IMG/VR virus record: IMGVR_UViG_3300025520_000068
Coordinates: 1-35,194 of that record
From: a virus
Length of the DNA: 35,194 nt
Direction: 5' to 3' (one strand)
In this document: one piece after another, positions 2,423 to 34,137 of the stretch
Position numbering within the stretch: the stretch's first letter is position 1
How the letters are laid out: each line of letters begins with the position of its first letter
The notes under the pieces: generated by a model
The model's input: the letters and a program-made list of their open reading frames with translations, nothing else
The model's database searches: none
Told to the model about the DNA's origin: nothing
Translations under genes and position numbers: made by a program

Positions 2423-2771
2423 GGGGATGTCATGGTTTCGACAGGTCGTTGTTTGATTCAAAGGGCAGTGGTGTGGCTACCTAAAGGCCAACAAAAATAT
2501 CTGGAAACAGACTTTCTTTCGCTGCTTAATTAGCTAAATACTGCTATCAGCGTGCACCTTATGGGTTGGTCTTTGGCTCATAAACGTGTATCACAAACAA
2601 AGAATAAGGTTCACAAGTTGACTCTACGCGTGTTCCCGACAATCCCATTGAGTCAATCATCTCTTGCTTGTCATGTCCTTAAGAGGTGATTAATAGCGAT
2701 ATGACTAAACTGTAGAACTTTGAATGTGAGACACTTCTTGGACAGGAGTTCGACTCTCCTCATCTCCACCA
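2423..2771 (+). ncRNA. ssrA: Transfer-messenger RNA
   Basis: tmRNA rescues ribosomes stalled on broken messages, acting first as alanyl-tRNA and then as mRNA for a degradation tag. The 5' end GGGGATG pairs with the 3' CATCTCC before ACCA (one G-U), forming the acceptor stem. The 5' half of the T-arm-like domain contains GGTTTCGACAGG, and the 3' end has the T-loop GTTCGACTC. By alignment to the Bacillus-type resume region (UAUCUGGA here, UAACUGGC there), the tag reads from GGA at 2503 to TAA at 2527: encoded GNRLSFAA, i.e. AGNRLSFAA with the charged alanine. The last 11-12 bases (from about 2761) come from the phage arm of attL but restore the gene exactly. The encoded CCA is at 2769-2771. Length is about 349 nt, normal for the family. 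Confidence 0.95.
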
Positions 2772-4294
2772 ACCTTACCTTGTGTCACTTCCTTTCCAGT
2801 GGAAGTGACTTTTGCTTTATTGCCAATTGGATCAAGTTTGAAATTGATGTTTACTTCATCATCATGAATGATGATATTATCCACCAGTGCATCAATGATT
2901 TCTTTCTTCACATTAATATCTGCTTCATGAATTTTATCTCTCATGTCATACATGTATGCTTTAATTTTTTCAACTTCAAGATGCTCAAAATGACTGTGGT
3001 TCAGTTCATTTAGTCTTGATTCATAATGCTCAATCTGTTCTTTGATTTTATTTGTTTTAGTTGTGAGTATTCCTTTATCAATGTCACCTTCAAGATACAA
3101 ATCAAATAGTTTATCAACTTGGAACTTAAGAGAGTTCCTTTTTTTATTGATGTCCTCAGCCAATTCTTTATTGATGCCAATCGCTTTATCAGCAATTTCA
3201 ATAATCATCTTTGAAAGTTCATTGATTGCTTCATCACTTAATATTTCATCACGAATCATATCAAACACATAATCTTCAAGCAGATCAGCACGAATGGCCT
3301 TATTTTTGCAATCACCATTCTTTCTTTGTCGCTGGTTGCACGCATAGATAAAATACTTTGTTTCTTTATCTCGACCACGATAATAAGAAGCACCAACATA
3401 AGATGATCCACAGTGGCCACATTCCAGCTTGCCAGTGAGCAGATAAACACGAGTTGCATTCATACGTGGTTTTTGATTTTGATTAAGTTTAAGCTGTACA
3501 CGATTCCACAAATCATCTTCTATGATTCTTGGAAGCGCATCATCAATACGTGTGATATCTTCATCTTTTTTTAAAACACGATTGCCTAACTTCTTGGATG
3601 CACGTTTATTGAACACATACCTTCCTATGTACTTTTCATTACGAAGAATATCAAAAATGCTATTCTTACCAAATGGCCGGTTAAGTTTTGTTTTATAACC
3701 ACCATCATTGAGTGCATTAGCAATCATGTTATATCCATAACCATTAGCGTACATTTCGAAGATAAGGCGCACAGCTTGCGCTTCTGTTGGATTTATTGAG
3801 TATGTCTGATCCTTATTCACATTGAAACCTAAAGGCGCTACACCACCATTGTGAAGCGCTTTAAGAGCATTCTCATTCAATCCCTTGCGAACTTCACGTG
3901 CTAGGTTCTTTGAATAGTACTCTGCCAGTCCTTCCAGCACTGATTCAAGAATGACTGATTCAGGGCTATCATCAAGCTGCTCAAGAACAGAGATAATCCT
4001 TACACCATGCTTCTTCAGTTCGTTTTTATAAAATGCACTGTCATATCGATTTCTAGCAAAGCGGTCAAGCTTGTGAACAATAATCAAATCAAAGATTCCT
4101 GACTTGGAATCATGTATCATCTGAAGAAATTGTTCACGTTGATCAGTGGTTGCACTTACAGCTTCATCTTGGTAAATCCTAACTATCTCATGTCCACTTT
4201 TCTTGCAATAATCATTAATGGCACGCAATTGAGCATCTATGGATTCTTGGCGCTGGTTATCACTTGAAAATCTTGCATACAATGCTGCTTTCAT
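2705..4294 (-). CDS. int: Large serine recombinase (phage integrase)
   Basis: This 529-residue protein catalyses integration and excision at ssrA. The N-terminal resolvase domain (1-140) contains YARFSSDNQRQ with the nucleophilic serine at S10 and the conserved arginine R8, plus KLDRFARNR. A recombinase domain with GFNVNKDQTYSINPTEAQAVR and a C4 zinc ribbon (CGHC near 294, later C-x6-C) follow, with a coiled-coil insertion around residues 380-440, the usual large serine integrase plan. The start at 4294 has an AGGTGA site. It is the last gene of the leftward lysogeny operon, 9 bp after the HIRAN-like gene. Oddly, codons 512-529 (from 2761 down) are host ssrA sequence read antisense, ending at a TAG in tmRNA. 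In the excised circle, the frame instead continues into 34093-34025. Confidence 0.95.
   Translation of the reverse strand: MKAALYARFSSDNQRQESIDAQLRAINDYCKKSGHEIVRIYQDEAVSATTDQREQFLQMIHDSKSGIFDLIIVHKLDRFARNRYDSAFYKNELKKHGVRIISVLEQLDDSPESVILESVLEGLAEYYSKNLAREVRKGLNENALKALHNGGVAPLGFNVNKDQTYSINPTEAQAVRLIFEMYANGYGYNMIANALNDGGYKTKLNRPFGKNSIFDILRNEKYIGRYVFNKRASKKLGNRVLKKDEDITRIDDALPRIIEDDLWNRVQLKLNQNQKPRMNATRVYLLTGKLECGHCGSSYVGASYYRGRDKETKYFIYACNQRQRKNGDCKNKAIRADLLEDYVFDMIRDEILSDEAINELSKMIIEIADKAIGINKELAEDINKKRNSLKFQVDKLFDLYLEGDIDKGILTTKTNKIKEQIEHYESRLNELNHSHFEHLEVEKIKAYMYDMRDKIHEADINVKKEIIDALVDNIIIHDDEVNINFKLDPIGNKAKVTSTGKEVTQGKVGGDEESRTPVQEVSHIQSSTV
2760..2772. repeat. attL core
   Basis: The 13 bases TCATCTCCACCAA are identical to 34092-34104 and lie at the 3' end of the tmRNA gene. 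Immediately to the right, bases 2771-2781 (AACCTTACCTT) form the right arm of attP. Their exact reverse complement occurs at 34072-34082, left of attR. The likely exchange point is the TC at 2760-2761, because it sits at the centre of the attP arms. Confidence 0.9.
2784..2820 (+). terminator. Phage-supplied hairpin just downstream of tmRNA
   Basis: A perfect 9-bp stem (GTCACTTCC at 2784-2792 with GGAAGTGAC at 2801-2809) with an 8-base loop is followed by TTTTGCTTTATT. It begins 12 bases after the tmRNA CCA end and lies inside the coding sequence of the convergent integrase. The tract is not pure T, so efficiency is uncertain. It is the first plausible stop signal for ssrA transcription in the lysogen, because the native terminator now sits at 34115. 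Confidence 0.55.
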
Positions 4295-4303
4295 AAAATC
4301 ACC

Positions 4304-4954
4304 TCAAGTGTAAATTTCATTAAGTTTATCAGTTGCATCTGATGATAATCTAAAATCAACAATCACACCAAAACTTTTATCATTACCACCAATAATTTTA
4401 CTGACTACAATTTTAGTACAATAATCTTGCAACAATGTTAGTTCTTCTGCTTCTTCTTTTGGAATTGAACCAATTGATAATCCATCATGCATAATTTCTA
4501 CTGCAGGTTTACCTTTAAAGTCATAATATCTTGCTGTTAAAGTATCTCTTCTGTTTAACAAAGCAATATTATCTTGTCTATTATCAAAGGTAACTCCTGT
4601 TAGTTTAATGAATTTACCATATCCAAAACTTAATCTTTTCCATTGACCATAATTAGTATTATAAAGACTTTTTAGATCATCATCTTCATCATCCTCATCA
4701 TTTTCATAATCTTCATCATAGTTGTCAATTTCAAAGTTTAAATTAGGTTTATTATTTTCAACCTTAATCTTTAGCTGATTTTTATGTTTAAGTTTTGCAG
4801 CATAAATTAGAAATACAATAATGAAGTATGATATCAAAAATAACAGTCCAACGAAAAATAGATCACTAAAAATAAAAGCAAATGAAATCATGATCCAAAA
4901 CAAAGATAAAATAGCAAATGCAATGATAAAGAATAAGTTAATGATTTTTTTCAT
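4304..4954 (-). CDS. Membrane-anchored HIRAN-like protein
   Basis: The 216-residue protein has two tight hydrophobic segments (about 5-28 and 32-52) separated by a short SDLFF turn, forming an N-terminal membrane hairpin. A basic stretch follows, then a very acidic linker (residues 75-93, rich in D and E). The C-terminal domain from about 112 has a HIRAN-like pattern: KLTGVTFDNRQDNIALL, then LTARYYDFKGKPAVEIM, then GLSIGSIPKEEAEEL. HIRAN domains bind DNA ends in some helicase-associated proteins. A membrane-tethered one is unusual, and its role here is unknown. The start overlaps the repressor stop by 4 bp (ATGA), so it is translationally coupled to the repressor and probably expressed in the lysogen. 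A superinfection-exclusion or signalling role is only an inference. Confidence 0.65.
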   Translation of the reverse strand: MKKIINLFFIIAFAILSLFWIMISFAFIFSDLFFVGLLFLISYFIIVFLIYAAKLKHKNQLKIKVENNKPNLNFEIDNYDEDYENDEDDEDDDLKSLYNTNYGQWKRLSFGYGKFIKLTGVTFDNRQDNIALLNRRDTLTARYYDFKGKPAVEIMHDGLSIGSIPKEEAEELTLLQDYCTKIVVSKIIGGNDKSFGVIVDFRLSSDATDKLNEIYT

Positions 4955-5574
4955 AGTTCCCTCCGTATCTCAACCACCTTACCAATTATAGTCACTGGTA
5001 AAAGTGAGATTTGCTCTTTGTTATAATGAATGACATTAAATAAGTTGTTCAATGGAATAAGTGTAATTCCATTATCTTCAAATATAATTTTCTTACAAGT
5101 CGCTTCATCACCATTAACTTTTACAATAGCGATGTTACCGTTATCTACCAATTCTTGCTGTCTAACAATTAGAGTATCACCATTCTCAATCTTTGGAAGC
5201 ATAGAGTCACCCTTTGCTTTTAATCCAAAGAAATTACCACGATTTGCCATTTCCAATGATATCTCTTCAAAATCAATTATTTCTTCAATTGCACTAATTG
5301 GAACTCCGCAAGGCACTGTACCAAGCACAGGGATTTTTATACCATATGATTCTTTGAAATAACTTTTGTCCTCAACTAATTCAGATTTATAGACACCAAA
5401 GTAATCCGCCAATTGTTGCAACTTATCAATACGTGGATATTTTTTCCCATTCATCCACTCAGAGATAGTTGTTTGGCTAACTTTTAAATCGTGAGCTAAA
5501 TCCATTTGTGTCTTACCGTTCAGTTTCATAAACTTACTTAAGTTCTTAGATAAGACTTCTCGATTACCAATCAT
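4951..5574 (-). CDS. LexA/CI-type phage repressor, self-cleaving
   Basis: The 207-residue repressor has an N-terminal XRE helix-turn-helix (residues about 10-62, with KTQMDLAHDLKVSQTTISEW) and a C-terminal S24 peptidase domain. The predicted cleavage bond is C89-G90 in TVPCG. The catalytic serine is S124 in KGDSMLP and the lysine is K161 in EATCKK, 37 residues later as in LexA. It should hold the prophage silent and be inactivated by RecA-stimulated autocleavage after DNA damage. The start at 5574 has an AAGGAGG site 7 bases upstream. It is divergent from the Cro-like gene across a 129-bp control region and heads the leftward operon repressor-HIRAN-integrase. This part is confidently recognised. 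Confidence 0.93.
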   Translation of the reverse strand: MIGNREVLSKNLSKFMKLNGKTQMDLAHDLKVSQTTISEWMNGKKYPRIDKLQQLADYFGVYKSELVEDKSYFKESYGIKIPVLGTVPCGVPISAIEEIIDFEEISLEMANRGNFFGLKAKGDSMLPKIENGDTLIVRQQELVDNGNIAIVKVNGDEATCKKIIFEDNGITLIPLNNLFNVIHYNKEQISLLPVTIIGKVVEIRREL

Positions 5575-6141: not shown

Positions 6142-6283
6142 AATAGGTGAAAGAAAAGTTACAACTAACGTAACAAAATCAAACGTTGATTATAAGCAGC
6201 TGGCAAAAGTCATTCTTGAGGCATATATGAAATCGAGGTGCATCGTAAATGAACAAAAAAGAGATGTATCAAGTTCTGGATGA
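6134..6283 (+). CDS. Hypothetical small protein, 49 aa
   Basis: The frame starts at ATG 6134, overlapping the stop of the membrane protein by 8 bp, and ends at TGA 6281-6283. It thus overlaps the tyrosine recombinase gene by 35 bp. The product is basic and mostly helical in its middle (YKQLAKVILEAYMKSR). No strong ribosome site is seen, so expression would depend on coupling. The intergenic space would otherwise be empty, and such frames are common in phage early operons. No function is assigned. Confidence 0.4.
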   Translation: MNKIGERKVTTNVTKSNVDYKQLAKVILEAYMKSRCIVNEQKRDVSSSG

Positions 6284-7082
6284 ATTCATCCTGGAACTAA
6301 AGTATCAAGAGAAAGCTGAAAGAACGCTAAGCAAATATAAAGCAGATATTCTTAAGTTTCTTGATTCAATTAAACACGAAAGTGAGATTACCAAAGATGA
6401 TGTGTTGCTTTTCAAAAAGATGATAAGTGAAGGAAAATACAAGCCACGTAGTATCAATTCTTACATAGTTGCAGTAAACAAATTTCTCAAGTGGTGTGGC
6501 AACGAAGATATGAAAGTTAAGAAGTTGAAAATGCAAATGAAGAATAGCATTGACAACATCATAAGCATATCCGATTATAAGCGACTTCTAAGATTTGCAA
6601 AGAAGCTGAATCATGATGATATTTACATGATTATGAAGATAATCGCTACAACTGGAATCAGAATAAGTGAATTAAGATTCTTCACAGTTGAATCTATTAA
6701 GTCATCATTCTACATTCACGTAAGAAACAAAGGTAAGGACAGAGATATCATCCTGACTCAAGAACTAGCTAGAGAATTGAGAAAGTACTGTAAAGACCAC
6801 AATATCAATTCCGGTCGAATATTTAATTTAGGTGATTTAGCGATATGGCGAAAGCTCAAAAAGATTGCAGGTGCTGCACGTGTCAATAAAGATAAGGTAC
6901 ACGCACATTCATTTAGACATTTATTTGCTAAAGAGTTTATCTCTGAATACAACAATCCATTGGAACTAGCAGACATACTTGGTCACAGTTCATTGGAAAC
7001 AACCAGGATCTACACTAGATCAACCAACGAGGAAAAGCGCAAGAAGCTTGAACAGATGAAAATCAAAGGGGTGAAAAAGTGA
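6249..7082 (+). CDS. Tyrosine recombinase (XerC/D-like)
   Basis: The 277-residue protein has an N-terminal SAM-like core-binding domain (1-100) and a C-terminal catalytic domain. The catalytic set is intact: R138 in TTGIRISEL, lysine K161 or K163 in the NKGKDRD turn, H220 and R223 in HSFRH, H246 in LGHSS and the nucleophile Y255 in TTRIYTR. It is compact, like XerC/D or transposon recombinases. It is far from both att sites and lies inside the early operon, while the prophage already has a serine integrase at the boundary. It is therefore more likely a resolvase, dimer-resolution or inversion enzyme than the integrase. An AGGTG site precedes the start. Confidence 0.92.
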   Translation: MNKKEMYQVLDEFILELKYQEKAERTLSKYKADILKFLDSIKHESEITKDDVLLFKKMISEGKYKPRSINSYIVAVNKFLKWCGNEDMKVKKLKMQMKNSIDNIISISDYKRLLRFAKKLNHDDIYMIMKIIATTGIRISELRFFTVESIKSSFYIHVRNKGKDRDIILTQELARELRKYCKDHNINSGRIFNLGDLAIWRKLKKIAGAARVNKDKVHAHSFRHLFAKEFISEYNNPLELADILGHSSLETTRIYTRSTNEEKRKKLEQMKIKGVKK

Positions 7083-27600: not shown

Positions 27601-29652
27601 ATGGAATTATTAGTCTACAATCATGATTTAGAACTCATTGGAATTATCGATGATGCTAAATCAATTATATGGCATCGAAGATATTACACTGCCGGTGATT
27701 TTGAAATTATTCTACCAGTCAATGAAATTAACATTGAATTGATTCAAAAACAGTACATTATCACCAAAAATGATTCAGTGGAATGTGGAATCATTGAAAA
27801 CATTACAATTGAGCAAAGTGATGATGGTGAGCTGCTTAAAGCCATTGGCCGATTTGGTTCATCACTATTATCAAGAAGAATTGTGTTTAACACCACAATC
27901 ATCATTGATACTTATGAAAATGCAATGCGACAGTTAGTGTATGAAAATGCAATAAATCCTGAAATTGTTGAACGCATTATTCCGAACTTACTTCTTGGAA
28001 CACTTAACTCATTTTCTGATTCAGTTCAATTCCAAGTATCGTACAGAAATCTATTGGCCACACTTACAGGATTGTCAGAGAACAGTGGTATTGGGTTCAG
28101 AGTAAGGTTAAATCCTGCATATAAGAAGTTATATTTTGAAACATACAAAGCACTTGATAGATCAGTCAATCAAAGTGTTAATCCAAGAGTTATCTTCAGT
28201 AATGACTACGACAATCTTCTAGCATCGATTTATCAATCAAGTGACATGAAGTATTCCAATGTGGCACTGGTAGGTGGTGAAGGTGAAGGCGAAGATAGAA
28301 AAATGGTCATTGTTGGTTCAGGTGCTGGTTTAGATCGATATGAAGTGTTTGTAAATGCCAAAGAGATACGCATGGAAGATGACATCACTGAACCTCAATA
28401 CTTTGCCATGTTAGCAACAAAAGGTGCAGAATCATTAATGCCTAAAGTTGAATATTTTGAAGGTAATGTTCTAGCTGAAAGTAATGTGATTTATAAAGTT
28501 GACTATGACTTGGGTGACATTGTAACGATTGAGAACACCAAATGGAATAAACGAATCAATGTTCAAATCACAGAAATCACTGAAGTCTATGATGAGAATG
28601 GTATTCAAGTTATACCAGTGTTTGGTCAATCATCACCAACGATTCAAGACACCATTCCAGAACGTGATACTTCTGGATCAGGTGGTAGTGGAAGTGAAAT
28701 TGTAGTTACACCAAACAAAGCTCTAGTTTCTGATGCTGATGGCAATGTTGTATCATCAAGTGTTAGTGACACTGAACTTGAATATTTATCTGGTGTTACT
28801 TCAAACCTTCAAACTCAATTGAATGGTAAACAAGCAACAATCAATGGTGCTGCATCCACTGTAGTATCAAGTAATTTGACTGTCAATCGTGCTGTGATTT
28901 CAGATGCAAGCGGAAAGATTGCAGTATCTGTTGCAACATCTACTGAACTTGGATATTTATCTGGTGTATCATCAAACCTTCAAACTCAATTGAATGGCAA
29001 ACAAGCAACAATCAATGGTGCTGCATCCACTGTAGTATCTAGCAACTTAAATGCTAATCGTGCTGTGATTTCTGATGCTAGTGGAAAAATTGCAGCATCA
29101 GCTGCAACATCAACTGAAGTTGGATATTTGTCTGGTGTAACATCAAATATTCAAAATCAAATAAATGAAAAAGCAAATAAGATCATTAATCTAATTGCTG
29201 GTAATGGGTTAACTGGTGGTGGAACATTAGAAATTAATCGAACATTTACACTAGGTACTCCAGGAACAATAACACCAACTTCTACAAACAGTGTATCATC
29301 AACATCACACACACATGATATAAGTTTTGATGTTGTTGAGTCATTTGGAACTAATTCAAACGGAAGTTATATTCGTTTTTCTGATGGGACTCAAATATGT
29401 TGGTATAACGATACAACTGGCATTACTACATCTAATGCAACTACACCTATTCGATGGAATGCTCGTGCTTTCACTTTCCCGGCTGCATTTATATTAACAC
29501 CTTCAATATTACCAACTGTTTATAGAAGCACAAATAGTTTTGCATGGTCTGGGATTCAAGAAGAAAGTTCCAATGGATGCTCACTCTATATTTTATCGCC
29601 ATATAGCACAACTGGATTTATTAGATATATTGCAATAGGAAGGTGGAAATAA
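27601..29652 (+). CDS. Tail tip protein (Gp37-like) fused to fibre repeats
   Basis: The 683-residue protein has an N-terminal baseplate domain (1-355) resembling siphovirus ReqiPepy6 Gp37-like proteins: YNHDLELIGIIDDAKSIIWH, then YYTAGDFEIILPVN, then GIGFRVRLNPAYKKLYFETY. A Gly/Ser hinge at about 360-365 follows, then three copies of a 57-residue fibre repeat from residue 373 (KALVSDADG / RAVISDASG, LSGV.SN.QTQLN). A C-terminal carbohydrate-binding-like end contains SSTSHTHD, the trimeric fibre HxH motif, and a FSDGTQICWYNDTTGIT segment. It is thus baseplate hub and receptor fibre in one. Repeats are shared with the gene at 30097. Confidence 0.85.
   Translation: MELLVYNHDLELIGIIDDAKSIIWHRRYYTAGDFEIILPVNEINIELIQKQYIITKNDSVECGIIENITIEQSDDGELLKAIGRFGSSLLSRRIVFNTTIIIDTYENAMRQLVYENAINPEIVERIIPNLLLGTLNSFSDSVQFQVSYRNLLATLTGLSENSGIGFRVRLNPAYKKLYFETYKALDRSVNQSVNPRVIFSNDYDNLLASIYQSSDMKYSNVALVGGEGEGEDRKMVIVGSGAGLDRYEVFVNAKEIRMEDDITEPQYFAMLATKGAESLMPKVEYFEGNVLAESNVIYKVDYDLGDIVTIENTKWNKRINVQITEITEVYDENGIQVIPVFGQSSPTIQDTIPERDTSGSGGSGSEIVVTPNKALVSDADGNVVSSSVSDTELEYLSGVTSNLQTQLNGKQATINGAASTVVSSNLTVNRAVISDASGKIAVSVATSTELGYLSGVSSNLQTQLNGKQATINGAASTVVSSNLNANRAVISDASGKIAASAATSTEVGYLSGVTSNIQNQINEKANKIINLIAGNGLTGGGTLEINRTFTLGTPGTITPTSTNSVSSTSHTHDISFDVVESFGTNSNGSYIRFSDGTQICWYNDTTGITTSNATTPIRWNARAFTFPAAFILTPSILPTVYRSTNSFAWSGIQEESSNGCSLYILSPYSTTGFIRYIAIGRWK
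28717..29187 (+). repeat. Three 171-bp coding repeats in the tip protein
   Basis: Units run 28717-28887, 28888-29058 and 29059 to about 29187 (last partial), encoding 57 residues each. The first two are nearly identical at DNA level over the LQTQLNGKQATINGAAST part. The same unit recurs three times at 30610-31074. Confidence 0.9.
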
Positions 29653-29918
29653 TGTTAATTTTTAGCCCTCAATTTAGTAATATTAAGTCTTCTTATAAGC
29701 TTGAAAATCAAAAGTTGACAATATCTATAGATGGAATTGAAGAAGTATTTGATTTTTCTGTAATGCCTGATGGAATTTTAGAACATGTTGAAGTTGAAAT
29801 TTTGCCAATAAATCCAATATTATCAGCAAAAAAAAGTAACGGTATCTTAGAAATAATCGTTATCAAATTTTATGATGATGATGAAAAAATGCTTTATGAG
29901 GTAAATCATGAAAATTAA
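29652..29918 (+). CDS. Small tail-associated protein, 88 aa
   Basis: The ATG at 29652 lies 6 bases after AAGGTGG and overlaps the TAA of the tip-protein gene; the upstream GTG at 29643 is less likely. The product is beta-patterned and acidic (LENQKLTISIDGIEEVFDFS, then MPDGILEHVEVEIL). It occupies the XkdW-like slot between baseplate and fibre genes. No specific function is assigned. Confidence 0.6.
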   Translation: MLIFSPQFSNIKSSYKLENQKLTISIDGIEEVFDFSVMPDGILEHVEVEILPINPILSAKKSNGILEIIVIKFYDDDEKMLYEVNHEN

Positions 29919-30081
29919 ATGGAAAAAACAAAATGAAATAGAATTTGAAAATGAAACAGAAAATGAACTTTCCATTAATATCGAAAAGTTTAAAGACAGA
30001 AAATTTTGTGACCTATCATCAAAAGAAAAAGATGAGCTGTTAAGACTTATTGCATTAAACAATGGACTTATAAAACAATAG
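29908..30081 (+). CDS. XkdX-like slot protein, 57 aa
   Basis: The frame begins at ATG 29908 with GAGGT upstream and overlaps the preceding stop by 11 bp. The 57-residue, strongly charged product (MKIKWKKQNEIEFENETENE, then SSKEKDELLRLIALNNGL) fits the size and place of PBSX XkdX-type proteins but sequence similarity by eye is weak. Function is unknown. Confidence 0.5.
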   Translation: MKIKWKKQNEIEFENETENELSINIEKFKDRKFCDLSSKEKDELLRLIALNNGLIKQ

Positions 30082-30096
30082 AAGGGAGTAAATGCT

Positions 30097-31182
30097 ATGG
30101 CAATTAGAAGTGGATTTTTTAACAGCATCGGTGGTGATAGAACATACGATGCTTCTAGATTTGCTGAATACTTTTCAGCATTCATTGGAACTGGTGTATT
30201 TCCTGAACCAACAACCGGATTGCAAATTCAAGCAGACACAGGAATGGACATCAAAATCAAAGCTGGGAAAGCCTGGATCAACGGTTACATTCTAGTTAAT
30301 GATGCGGATTATACTGAAGCAATTCCTTCAGAAGCAATTCTAAATCGAATTGATAGAATTGTTGTCAGATTACATTATGCAAATCGTGAAATGACAATAG
30401 TTCGCAAAGCAGGAACAGCTGCATCAACACCATCAGCACCAGCAGTGACACGTGATGCAAATATGTATGAATTGTCGCTTGGAACGATTGCTATCAATGC
30501 AGGAACAAGCACAATTACATCTGGCATGATCACAGACACACGTTCTGATAGCAATGTATGTGGTTTCGCTTCATCAACCATCACCAATCTTCCATATTTG
30601 ACACCACAACGTGTTCTTATCTCAGACACAGATGGAACACTTATTGCAAGTTCAATAACACAAACACAACTTGAGTATTTGTCTGGTGTCAATTCAAATA
30701 TTCAAACACAACTGAATGCAAAACAGGCCACAATCAACGGTGCTGCATCTACGATTGTGTCAAGCAACTTAACAGCCAATCGTGCTGTAATTTCTAATTC
30801 AAGTGGTAAAGTTGCAGCTTCAAGTGTGAGTAATACTGAACTTGAATATTTATCTGGTATCAATTCAAATATTCAAACTCAACTGAATGCAAAACAAGCC
30901 ACAATCAACGGTGCTGCATCAACAGTTGTATCAAGCAACTTAACTGCTAATCGTGCTGTGATTTCTGATTCTAATGGCAAGATTGCAGTATCAGCTGCAA
31001 CATCAACTGAAATTGGATATCTATCCGGTGTTACATCAGCAATTCAAACTCAATTGAATAATAAACTTGGTTCAACTGCACAAGCAAATGATTCATTAAG
31101 AGTTAATGGCCGAAGGGTAACAGTGGCAACTACTGCACCATCATCACCATCAGTCAACGATGTATGGATCGATACAAATTAA
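30097..31182 (+). CDS. Tail fibre protein with 57-residue repeats
   Basis: The 361-residue protein has an N-terminal attachment domain (RSGFFNSIGGDRTYDASRFA, then EYFSAFIGTGVFPE, and RIDRIVVRLHYANREMTIVR) of the type found at baseplate-attached fibres. From residue 172 it carries three copies of the 57-residue repeat shared with the tip protein. The C-terminus is a short VNGRRVTVATTAPSSPSVND tail. GGGAG precedes the start. It is expected to be a receptor fibre or an adaptor for the protein that follows. Confidence 0.85.
   Translation: MAIRSGFFNSIGGDRTYDASRFAEYFSAFIGTGVFPEPTTGLQIQADTGMDIKIKAGKAWINGYILVNDADYTEAIPSEAILNRIDRIVVRLHYANREMTIVRKAGTAASTPSAPAVTRDANMYELSLGTIAINAGTSTITSGMITDTRSDSNVCGFASSTITNLPYLTPQRVLISDTDGTLIASSITQTQLEYLSGVNSNIQTQLNAKQATINGAASTIVSSNLTANRAVISNSSGKVAASSVSNTELEYLSGINSNIQTQLNAKQATINGAASTVVSSNLTANRAVISDSNGKIAVSAATSTEIGYLSGVTSAIQTQLNNKLGSTAQANDSLRVNGRRVTVATTAPSSPSVNDVWIDTN
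30610..31074 (+). repeat. Three 171-bp coding repeats in the second fibre gene
   Basis: Units run 30610-30780, 30781-30951 and 30952 to about 31074 (last partial), all in frame. They begin RVLISDTDG, RAVISNSSG and RAVISDSNG and share the LSG-NSN-QTQLN-AKQATINGAAST core with the repeats at 28717-29187. Confidence 0.9.
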
Positions 31183-33277: not shown

Positions 33278-33293
33278 TCATTAGCGGTTTTTT
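33269..33293. terminator. Shared convergent terminator built on the two stop codons
   Basis: AACCGCTAAT and ATTAGCGGTT (33269-33278 and 33280-33289) are a perfect palindrome with one central base. The plus-strand T-run (TTTTTT) makes it a good rightward terminator. Both stop codons (TAA 33275-33277 and the minus-strand TAA at 33281-33283) are inside it, and both proteins therefore end in Asn-Arg. Confidence 0.85.
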
Positions 33294-33736
33294 GTTAGAT
33301 AATTGTAAAGTTCTTCAGCTGTGATTTCTAATGTTCTGCAAACAGTCATAATGTTTGAAAACTCTGCTTTTAAAATGTTTTTCTTTCCAGTGATCCAATC
33401 ACTGATAGTTGATTGTGGAATATTGGTAATCTTAGCCAGTTTATATCCACTCAATTCTTTCTGTTTAAGTAAGTCTCTAAATGTTCTTTTTGGATTCAAA
33501 CCTAACATTTCAAACAGTTGAACGTGTGCTGAGTAAATTTTAGTTTGATCACGAAATGCGTTTGTAGTTTTTGAACTGATGAATGCTAATGCTTTTTCAT
33601 CTGTTATTTCAATTATTTCTCCATTATTTTGATTTTCAATGAAAAATCTATAATCATGTCTTTCATCACCATTTATCCAGCGAAGATATAAACCATATTC
33701 ATTTTGTAAATCTCTTTTGTTTTTAAGTGTTGTCAT
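33281..33736 (-). CDS. XRE-type regulator in the right-end cassette, 151 aa
   Basis: The start is the ATG at 33736, with AGAGGAGAA upstream; the frame is open to 33856 but that start lies within the upstream gene in another frame and lacks a site. The N-terminal 80 residues (EYGLYLRWINGDERHDYRFF, then EIIEITDEKALAFIS) are of unknown fold. The C-terminal third is an XRE helix-turn-helix (LLKQKELSGYKLAKITNIPQ, then STISDWITGKKN). It is antisense to the structural operon and part of a two-gene minus-strand unit between lysis genes and attR. It may autoregulate from the palindromic operator upstream, and could be an antitoxin-like or conversion gene. Confidence 0.8.
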   Translation of the reverse strand: MTTLKNKRDLQNEYGLYLRWINGDERHDYRFFIENQNNGEIIEITDEKALAFISSKTTNAFRDQTKIYSAHVQLFEMLGLNPKRTFRDLLKQKELSGYKLAKITNIPQSTISDWITGKKNILKAEFSNIMTVCRTLEITAEELYNYLTKNR

Positions 33737-33755
33737 TTTATTTTCTCCTCTTTCA

Positions 33756-33911
33756 TTATTTCCAATCAACATTAGTGCTATTTTTGATTGATTGTTTTGC
33801 TTCTTGAATTTGCTTTTCTGTTGGTGCTTTTCCATAGCATCGTGTGATGAATGCAATTGCTTGATCCAATGTCATTCCATCGAAGTAAGTATTAATCAAT
33901 AAGTTTTTCAT
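33756..33911 (-). CDS. Small first gene of the right-end cassette, 51 aa
   Basis: The 51-residue product (MKNLLINTYFDGMTLDQAIA, then FITRCYGKAPTEKQIQEAKQ) starts at 33911, with AAAGGAAAAGG upstream and a consensus promoter 37 bases further. It ends at 33756, 19 bp before the XRE start. I do not recognise a family. Its position as leader of a regulator operon, like small toxins or anti-defence peptides, makes it interesting, but nothing shows a toxin. Confidence 0.65.
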   Translation of the reverse strand: MKNLLINTYFDGMTLDQAIAFITRCYGKAPTEKQIQEAKQSIKNSTNVDWK

Positions 33912-33947: not shown

Positions 33948-33976
33948 ATTATAACGCTATGGCGTTATACTGTCAA
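33948..33976 (-). promoter_or_regulatory. Promoter with overlapping palindromic operator
   Basis: On the minus strand TTGACA (33971-33976), a 17-base spacer and TATAAT (33948-33953) form a full-consensus promoter. TATAACGC and GCGTTATA (33950-33969, four-base centre) form a palindrome covering the spacer and the -10, an ideal operator. The XRE-type protein of the same operon is the likely binder. Confidence 0.88.
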
Positions 33977-34002: not shown

Positions 34003-34023
34003 AATACCACTTTTTTAAGTGGC
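34003..34023 (-). terminator. Orphaned integrase terminator
   Basis: On the minus strand, CCACTT and AAGTGG (34007-34012 and 34017-34022) form a 6-bp stem with loop AAAA, followed by TATTTTTTT. It lies directly after the stop of the phage-encoded integrase tail (34025) and would end integrase transcription in the circular phage. In the lysogen it terminates nothing of its own. Confidence 0.7.
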
Positions 34024-34024
34024 A

Positions 34025-34093
34025 TTAACTAGCTTTGCTATATGCATAAATTTGGGTTCTAGTTCTGACAAAAGGTAAGGTTAGGTACGGTTC
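34025..34093 (-). pseudogene. Detached phage 3' end of the integrase gene
   Basis: Joined to codon 511 of the integrase across the attP core, this minus-strand stretch continues the same frame for 22 codons and ends at TAA 34025-34027. The tail begins EPYLTLPFVRTRTQ and ends SKAS. It replaces the 18 host-derived residues present in the lysogen and would give a 533-residue integrase. It is not expressed as a gene in the integrated state. Confidence 0.85.
34072..34082. repeat. Left arm of attP inverted repeat
   Basis: AAGGTAAGGTT is the exact reverse complement of AACCTTACCTT at 2771-2781. In the circular phage the two arms are separated by 20 bases whose centre falls between T34092 and C34093 (equivalent to 2760/2761). 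Confidence 0.9.
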
Positions 34094-34104
34094 ATCTCCA
34101 CCAA
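34092..34104. repeat. attR core
   Basis: These 13 bases repeat the attL core. Sequence to the right (34105 onward) is the host sequence that originally followed ssrA, including its terminator. Confidence 0.9.
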
Positions 34105-34111
34105 AATGCAA

Positions 34112-34137
34112 AACAACCGCTGAAAAGCGGTTTTTTT
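34112..34137 (+). terminator. Native ssrA terminator, displaced by the prophage
   Basis: AACCGCT and AGCGGTT (34115-34121 and 34126-34132) with a GAAA tetraloop are followed by a seven-T run. In the uninterrupted chromosome it would start about 11 bases after tmRNA CCA, the expected place for the ssrA terminator. Confidence 0.9.

Follow-up and report, generated by a model that had tools for sequence, protein, structure and literature searches.

A phage large serine integrase gene predicted to exchange its C-terminal codons with host ssrA on integration

The 3' end of the integrase gene (int) of a prophage inserted in host ssrA holds the whole of attP, with the crossover downstream of every recognised Pfam domain. 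Int is therefore 529 aa long over attL and 533 aa over the rejoined attP. As read from the window (the whole analysed stretch of 35,194 nucleotides, positions 1 to 35,194 of IMG/VR virus record IMGVR_UViG_3300025520_000068), the final 21 codons of int are swapped for antisense codons of ssrA upon integration and regained upon excision. The full explanation proposed here is that attP lies in the end of int, that a conserved, folded tail would be lost on integration, that the loss would stabilise lysogeny, and that the phage would supply ssrA with a new terminator. Judged from sequence comparison and structure prediction, it has a slightly better than even chance of being right.

Table 1. Features of the window that bear on the exchange of the int end.
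Feature	Position	Strand	Basis or remark
Host ssrA (tmRNA), kept intact after insertion	2423..2771	+	Rfam RF00023, 116 bits; ARAGORN
int, large serine integrase, lysogen (attL) form, 529 aa	2705..4294	-	ORF; Pfam domains; PHROG 95 integrase
Host-read tail, lysogen Int residues 513-529, ESRTPVQEVSHIQSSTV, and stop	2705..2758	-	antisense of ssrA
attL core TCATCTCCACCAA	2760..2772		crossover dinucleotide TC 2760-2761; dyad centre
P' arm of attP, AACCTTACCTTGTGTCA, within int codons	2771..2787		inverted match to 34066-34082, 16/17 bases
Replacement terminator-like hairpin for ssrA, opposite strand to int linker codons	2784..2809	+	same place in relatives; shuffles
Gene between repressor and int, no assigned function	4304..4954	-	4-bp overlap with repressor gene, 9-bp gap to int
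S24-type phage repressor gene, first of likely operon ending in int	4951..5574	-	Pfam Peptidase_S24 and HTH_3; same order in L004
Terminator-like hairpin overlapping attP-form stop of int; parted from int by integration	34003..34026	-	sequence
attP-encoded tail, Int residues 513-533, PYLTLPFVRTRTQIYAYSKAS, and stop	34025..34090	-	homologous tails in G001, L093
P arm of attP, TGACAAAAGGTAAGGTT, codes for part of attP tail	34066..34082		inverted match to P' arm
attR core	34092..34104		crossover TC 34092-34093
ssrA's own terminator, stays at attR after insertion	34115..34132	+	same in G001 attR

The att sites and the two forms of the integrase

By sequence, the window holds a phage with a large serine integrase, inserted as a prophage in host ssrA. 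It carries portal and HK97 capsid genes, and the insertion is in ssrA, not rumA. lemA adjoins the ssrA site, as it does in the relative G001. The core is present in two exact copies with no third in the window, and the intact tmRNA gene ends in the left one. The tmRNA tag given by ARAGORN for the window (2423-2771) is odd (ANKNIWKQTFFRCLIS), and GNRLSFAA is given for the relatives L004 and L012; the bases of that tag are present here too, and GNRLSFAA is probably the true end of the window's tag.

The attP of the window consists of 17-bp inverted arms with one mismatch and a 20-bp gap. Its dyad centre falls on the TC that forms the first two bases common to phage and ssrA. Serine integrases contact about 50 bp of an att site and exchange the central dinucleotide (PMC3783163). 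A dyad centred on the exchanged TC is thus the form expected of a serine-integrase attP, which makes the junction credible. When attB is joined, ssrA adjoins a good terminator, and the same is seen in G001. It is very improbable that the att sites were misassigned and that the core repeat is a coincidence. The core is just 13 bp long, but the crossover is dyad-centred, joining attB gives ssrA its terminator back, the ends are the same in two relatives, and one further relative has a contiguous attP. A pattern scan for further attP arms matched only two contigs that were already known.

Int is a large serine integrase. The Resolvase, Recombinase and Zn_ribbon_recom domains follow in order at residues 3-143, 169-273 and 285-348, all above the Pfam cut-offs (E = 8.7e-29, 7.1e-26 and 2.5e-14). 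The predicted model of the attL form has a coiled coil inserted in the zinc domain, with helices 354-401 and 407-432 between zinc-domain strands. The model of the relative L093 has as its best Foldseek matches the solved structures of SPbeta, Bxb1, phiC31 and A118-family integrases. An R-x-x-[ILVM]-Y motif, considered as a general feature of serine integrases, is present in a subset only. Enzymes of this class depend on a recombination directionality factor (RDF) to excise, for which no gene was identified here. The prophage also has a second recombinase, an intact-looking tyrosine recombinase gene at 6249-7082 in the early region. Two tail-fibre-like ORFs (27601-31182) have common 171-bp repeats at 28771-29167 and 30671-31059, through which they could exchange sequence.

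The two forms of Int have residues 1-512 (2759-4294) in common. In the lysogen the reading frame crosses the core and terminates in antisense ssrA, as the preliminary description had stated. The codons of the attP tail are contiguous with 2759-4294 only once the phage ends rejoin. Joining the ends at the core, which is how the 533-aa form was built here in place of a junction read, gives a protein ending ...EPYLTLPFVRTRTQIYAYSKAS, with its stop at 34027-34025. The preliminary description had the last 18 lysogen residues as host-specific and 22 different residues in the attP form. The antisense origin of the former and the open frame of the latter both stand, and the counts become 17 (attL) and 21 (attP), the first E of the tails being common. 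The terminator hairpin that it placed at 34025-34003 is there, beginning one base earlier at 34026. It had further described a serine integrase tail that is exchanged and not broken; the Pfam domains are indeed untouched, although the principle was already known from the streptococcal rumA elements and Mx8 discussed below. An open frame of about 20 codons is of unremarkable length and proves nothing by itself. Chance read-through is disfavoured because the layout recurs in relatives and the attP-encoded tail is conserved.

The arrangement of att sites is the same in the relatives that retain both ends, G001 (integrase 73% identical) and Moorella phage OR602863 (43% identical). Both use the ssrA site and both have the two cores. 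Their joined attP tails are EPYLTIPLVRTRKDIYQYCKAN in G001 and GPLSIISLSKREEVYNLVQHN... in the Moorella phage, and their lysogen tails are EEN and GGSRTPVRRC..., respectively. L093 (integrase 64% identical) is a contiguous natural attP form whose tail, KAYLTIPFVFSRLDMYDYFKMYQA, is homologous to the attP-encoded tail of the window. Three natural pairs show the tail switch directly. Up to the core GTGGAGCTGA, the DNA of L070 matches that of L068 at 99.9% identity; beyond it one continues into an attP arm and the other into tmRNA. The L061/L062 pair (98.1% identical DNA) makes the same end switch at tRNA-Arg, and L019/L021 (94.6%) at tmRNA. Among homologues with complete ORFs, an antisense tRNA or tmRNA gene called by Rfam or ARAGORN lies at the int end in 23 of 64 clusters. 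The integrase at L013:1043-2611 is 70% identical to that of the window and has neither ssrA nor an attP arm past its core; its target site may be a different one.

Conservation and predicted fold of the tails

The first 8-9 codons of the attP tail are at the same time attP arm DNA, and the arm is identical at 22-23 of 25 bases among the window, G001 and L093. The 13 codons that follow (beyond +25 of attP) lie outside the contacted site. Their identity was compared with that of fourfold sites of the same genes as the neutral reference, in a small test of three close attP tails: 26/39 between the window and G001 against 0.37 (p=1.6e-4), 21/39 between G001 and L093 against 0.30 (p=1.3e-3), and 16/39 between the window and L093 against 0.29 (p=0.08). 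Conservation as attP DNA alone thus holds for about the first 25 bases and is insufficient beyond them, where identity is above the fourfold rate. A DNA-level constraint that reaches beyond +25 may be an additional source. The codon-position bias in the tail is weak by itself (3:3:7). The attP tails of the Moorella phage, L014, L001 and L002 are weak matches chosen after viewing.

AlphaFold predicts a strand (515-522) and a helix (523-534) in the attP tail of L093, with block mean pLDDT of 80 and 74 and a disordered linker before them; this fold was predicted for the relative, not for the joined form of the window itself, and the alignment under the tail is shallow (30 rows). In the attL form of the window, residues 492-529 are predicted to be disordered (pLDDT below 50) and the tail has no structure (pLDDT 27-40). 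The host tails past the first shared residue are 17 residues in the window, 2 in G001, 2 in L012 and about 37 in the Moorella phage, with no mutual resemblance beyond the RNA gene.

These observations can also be read as a neutral by-product, in which attP is placed at the end of the gene to save space, the part beyond the zinc-ribbon hairpin is not required, and the two enzymes are equivalent. All recognised domains finish well short of the crossover. Host tails among the relatives are free to vary from 2 to about 50 residues, which implies that the lysogen enzyme tolerates any end, and the arm DNA is sufficient for the conservation of the first 8-9 tail codons. Past the arm, however, the attP-encoded tail is by this comparison conserved above neutral expectation in two of the three pairs, and it is predicted to fold. 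The by-product reading is a serious possibility, although the balance is against it.

The proposed explanation is instead that integration strips a folded C-terminal element from Int, as we infer from the conservation and the models. The attP tail would likely matter for Int activity. The host-read tail probably does not serve as an alternative functional end, since it runs for just 2 residues past the shared E in G001 and L012, at the same ssrA site, and is predicted to be disordered in the window. As a general case a functional host-read tail is rejected on account of these two relatives. Loss of a conserved attP-encoded element therefore appears to be the better reading. Integration and excision may be run by differently ended enzymes, as the preliminary description suggested.

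In the proposed mechanism the attP-encoded tail would be a real C-terminal element of strand and helix, situated beyond a flexible linker and the zinc-ribbon hairpin. The 533-aa form would be made while the genome is circular (in infection and after excision) and would favour integration. The prophage would make a tail-less Int with the known domains intact, probably via the repressor operon. That enzyme would differ in its activity, its stability or the way it responds to the directionality factor, which would stabilise lysogeny.

Transcription and terminators at the two ends of int

The repressor gene, the gene at 4304-4954 and int are likely on one transcript, and tail-less Int would therefore be made in the lysogen. 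The product of 4304-4954 has no Pfam and no PHROG match. A perfect sigma-70 consensus promoter, unique in the window, is found at 33948-33976 (-), with the palindrome TATAACGC-N4-GCGTTATA between its hexamers. It lies upstream of an HTH gene (33281-33856).

Integration also rearranges terminators, detaching the int terminator, now at attR, and parting ssrA from its own. The lysogen ssrA would then be terminated by a phage-supplied hairpin opposite the int linker codons. This hairpin, GTCACTTCCTTTCCAGTGGAAGTGAC TTTTGCTTT, lies 12 bases past the tmRNA end on the ssrA-sense strand. A hairpin is found at the same place in 6/6 elements tested (window, G001, L012, L013, L093 and the Moorella phage), with 0/60 in the shuffle control for each. 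It is near-identical in G001 and differs in sequence in L012, L013, L093 and the Moorella phage. The int linker codons probably double as a replacement tmRNA terminator, since the hairpins recur at the same place in close relatives. A replacement terminator is not a general rule of such phages; it is present in all six close cases, yet absent in many more distant ssrA integrators. A second strong terminator-like hairpin, GGAACTTAAGAGAGTTCC TTTTTTT, lies within int at 3121-3138 (+) and also faces ssrA transcription.

In the retroregulation of phage lambda int, sib is an RNase III site that lowers int expression, and integration separates int from this 3' RNA element. Integration likewise parts int from a 3' element in the window phage, where the element is an intrinsic-terminator-like hairpin. 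The switch could act on RNA and not on protein. Loss of the int terminator would let the prophage int message run on antisense to ssrA and would alter message stability or ssrA expression. A terminator-like hairpin sits over the attP-form stop of int, or immediately behind it, in all three of the window, G001 and L093, and no leftward terminator-like site was found between the lysogen stop of int and lemA. On the other side, a terminator past a gene is ordinary, and the Moorella tail is without a clear T-run terminator. An RNA-level switch is rather unlikely to be the explanation, although it is compatible with a role of the protein tail, and the two are not exclusive.

Known systems and the meaning of the exchange

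Tail swapping by integration is already known, for a tyrosine integrase in Mx8 and for serine integrases in the rumA ICEs. In the streptococcal rumA ICEs the att site is in the serine integrase gene, integration alters the sequence and length of the C-terminus, and the authors suggested functional differences between the integrase forms (Ambroset et al. 2016, PMC4701971). The exchange of a serine integrase C-terminus upon integration is common to these elements and the window phage. The ICEs are conjugative, their target is a protein gene, and rumA is altered too, whereas the window holds a phage and its target, ssrA, stays intact. Myxococcus phage Mx8 (and Mx9) has attP within int, and the prophage integrase has a new C-terminus and altered activity (PMC6070905, PMC4701971). 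The Mx8 enzyme is a tyrosine recombinase in which 112 residues are replaced by 13, whereas in the serine integrase of the window 21 are replaced by 17 and all Pfam domains are kept.

In the integration-dependent immunity of mycobacteriophage BPs, attP is in the repressor gene and integration changes the C-terminus of that protein (PMC4557955); in the window the repressor gene is separate and attP is at the int end. Elements that integrate in tmRNA or tRNA genes restore the target RNA gene and usually have tyrosine integrases (Islander, PMC4383910). The target is restored in the window as well, but int is of the serine class and overlaps the target on the opposite strand. A literature search, with most subscription papers outside it, found no description of a lost tail that is conserved and predicted to fold, of how frequent this layout is among tRNA/tmRNA-targeting serine integrases, or of a tmRNA terminator within an integrase gene.

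It is possible, with somewhat less than an even chance, that in a widespread group of tRNA/tmRNA-targeting serine integrases attP also codes for a folded C-terminal element without which the enzyme does not integrate, and that integration thereby disarms it, and that in the ssrA subgroup the int linker serves as the replacement tmRNA terminator on the other strand. If true, this use of both strands of the linker would be an elegant example of one sequence with two functions. An integrase taken from a prophage genome ends in a host-read tail and lacks the native one. Because 23 of 64 clusters end on an antisense RNA gene, screens for genome engineering in which the annotated prophage form is synthesised may be working with a truncated enzyme. 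A recombinase gene edited by its own reaction would be a simple built-in memory of the integrated state.
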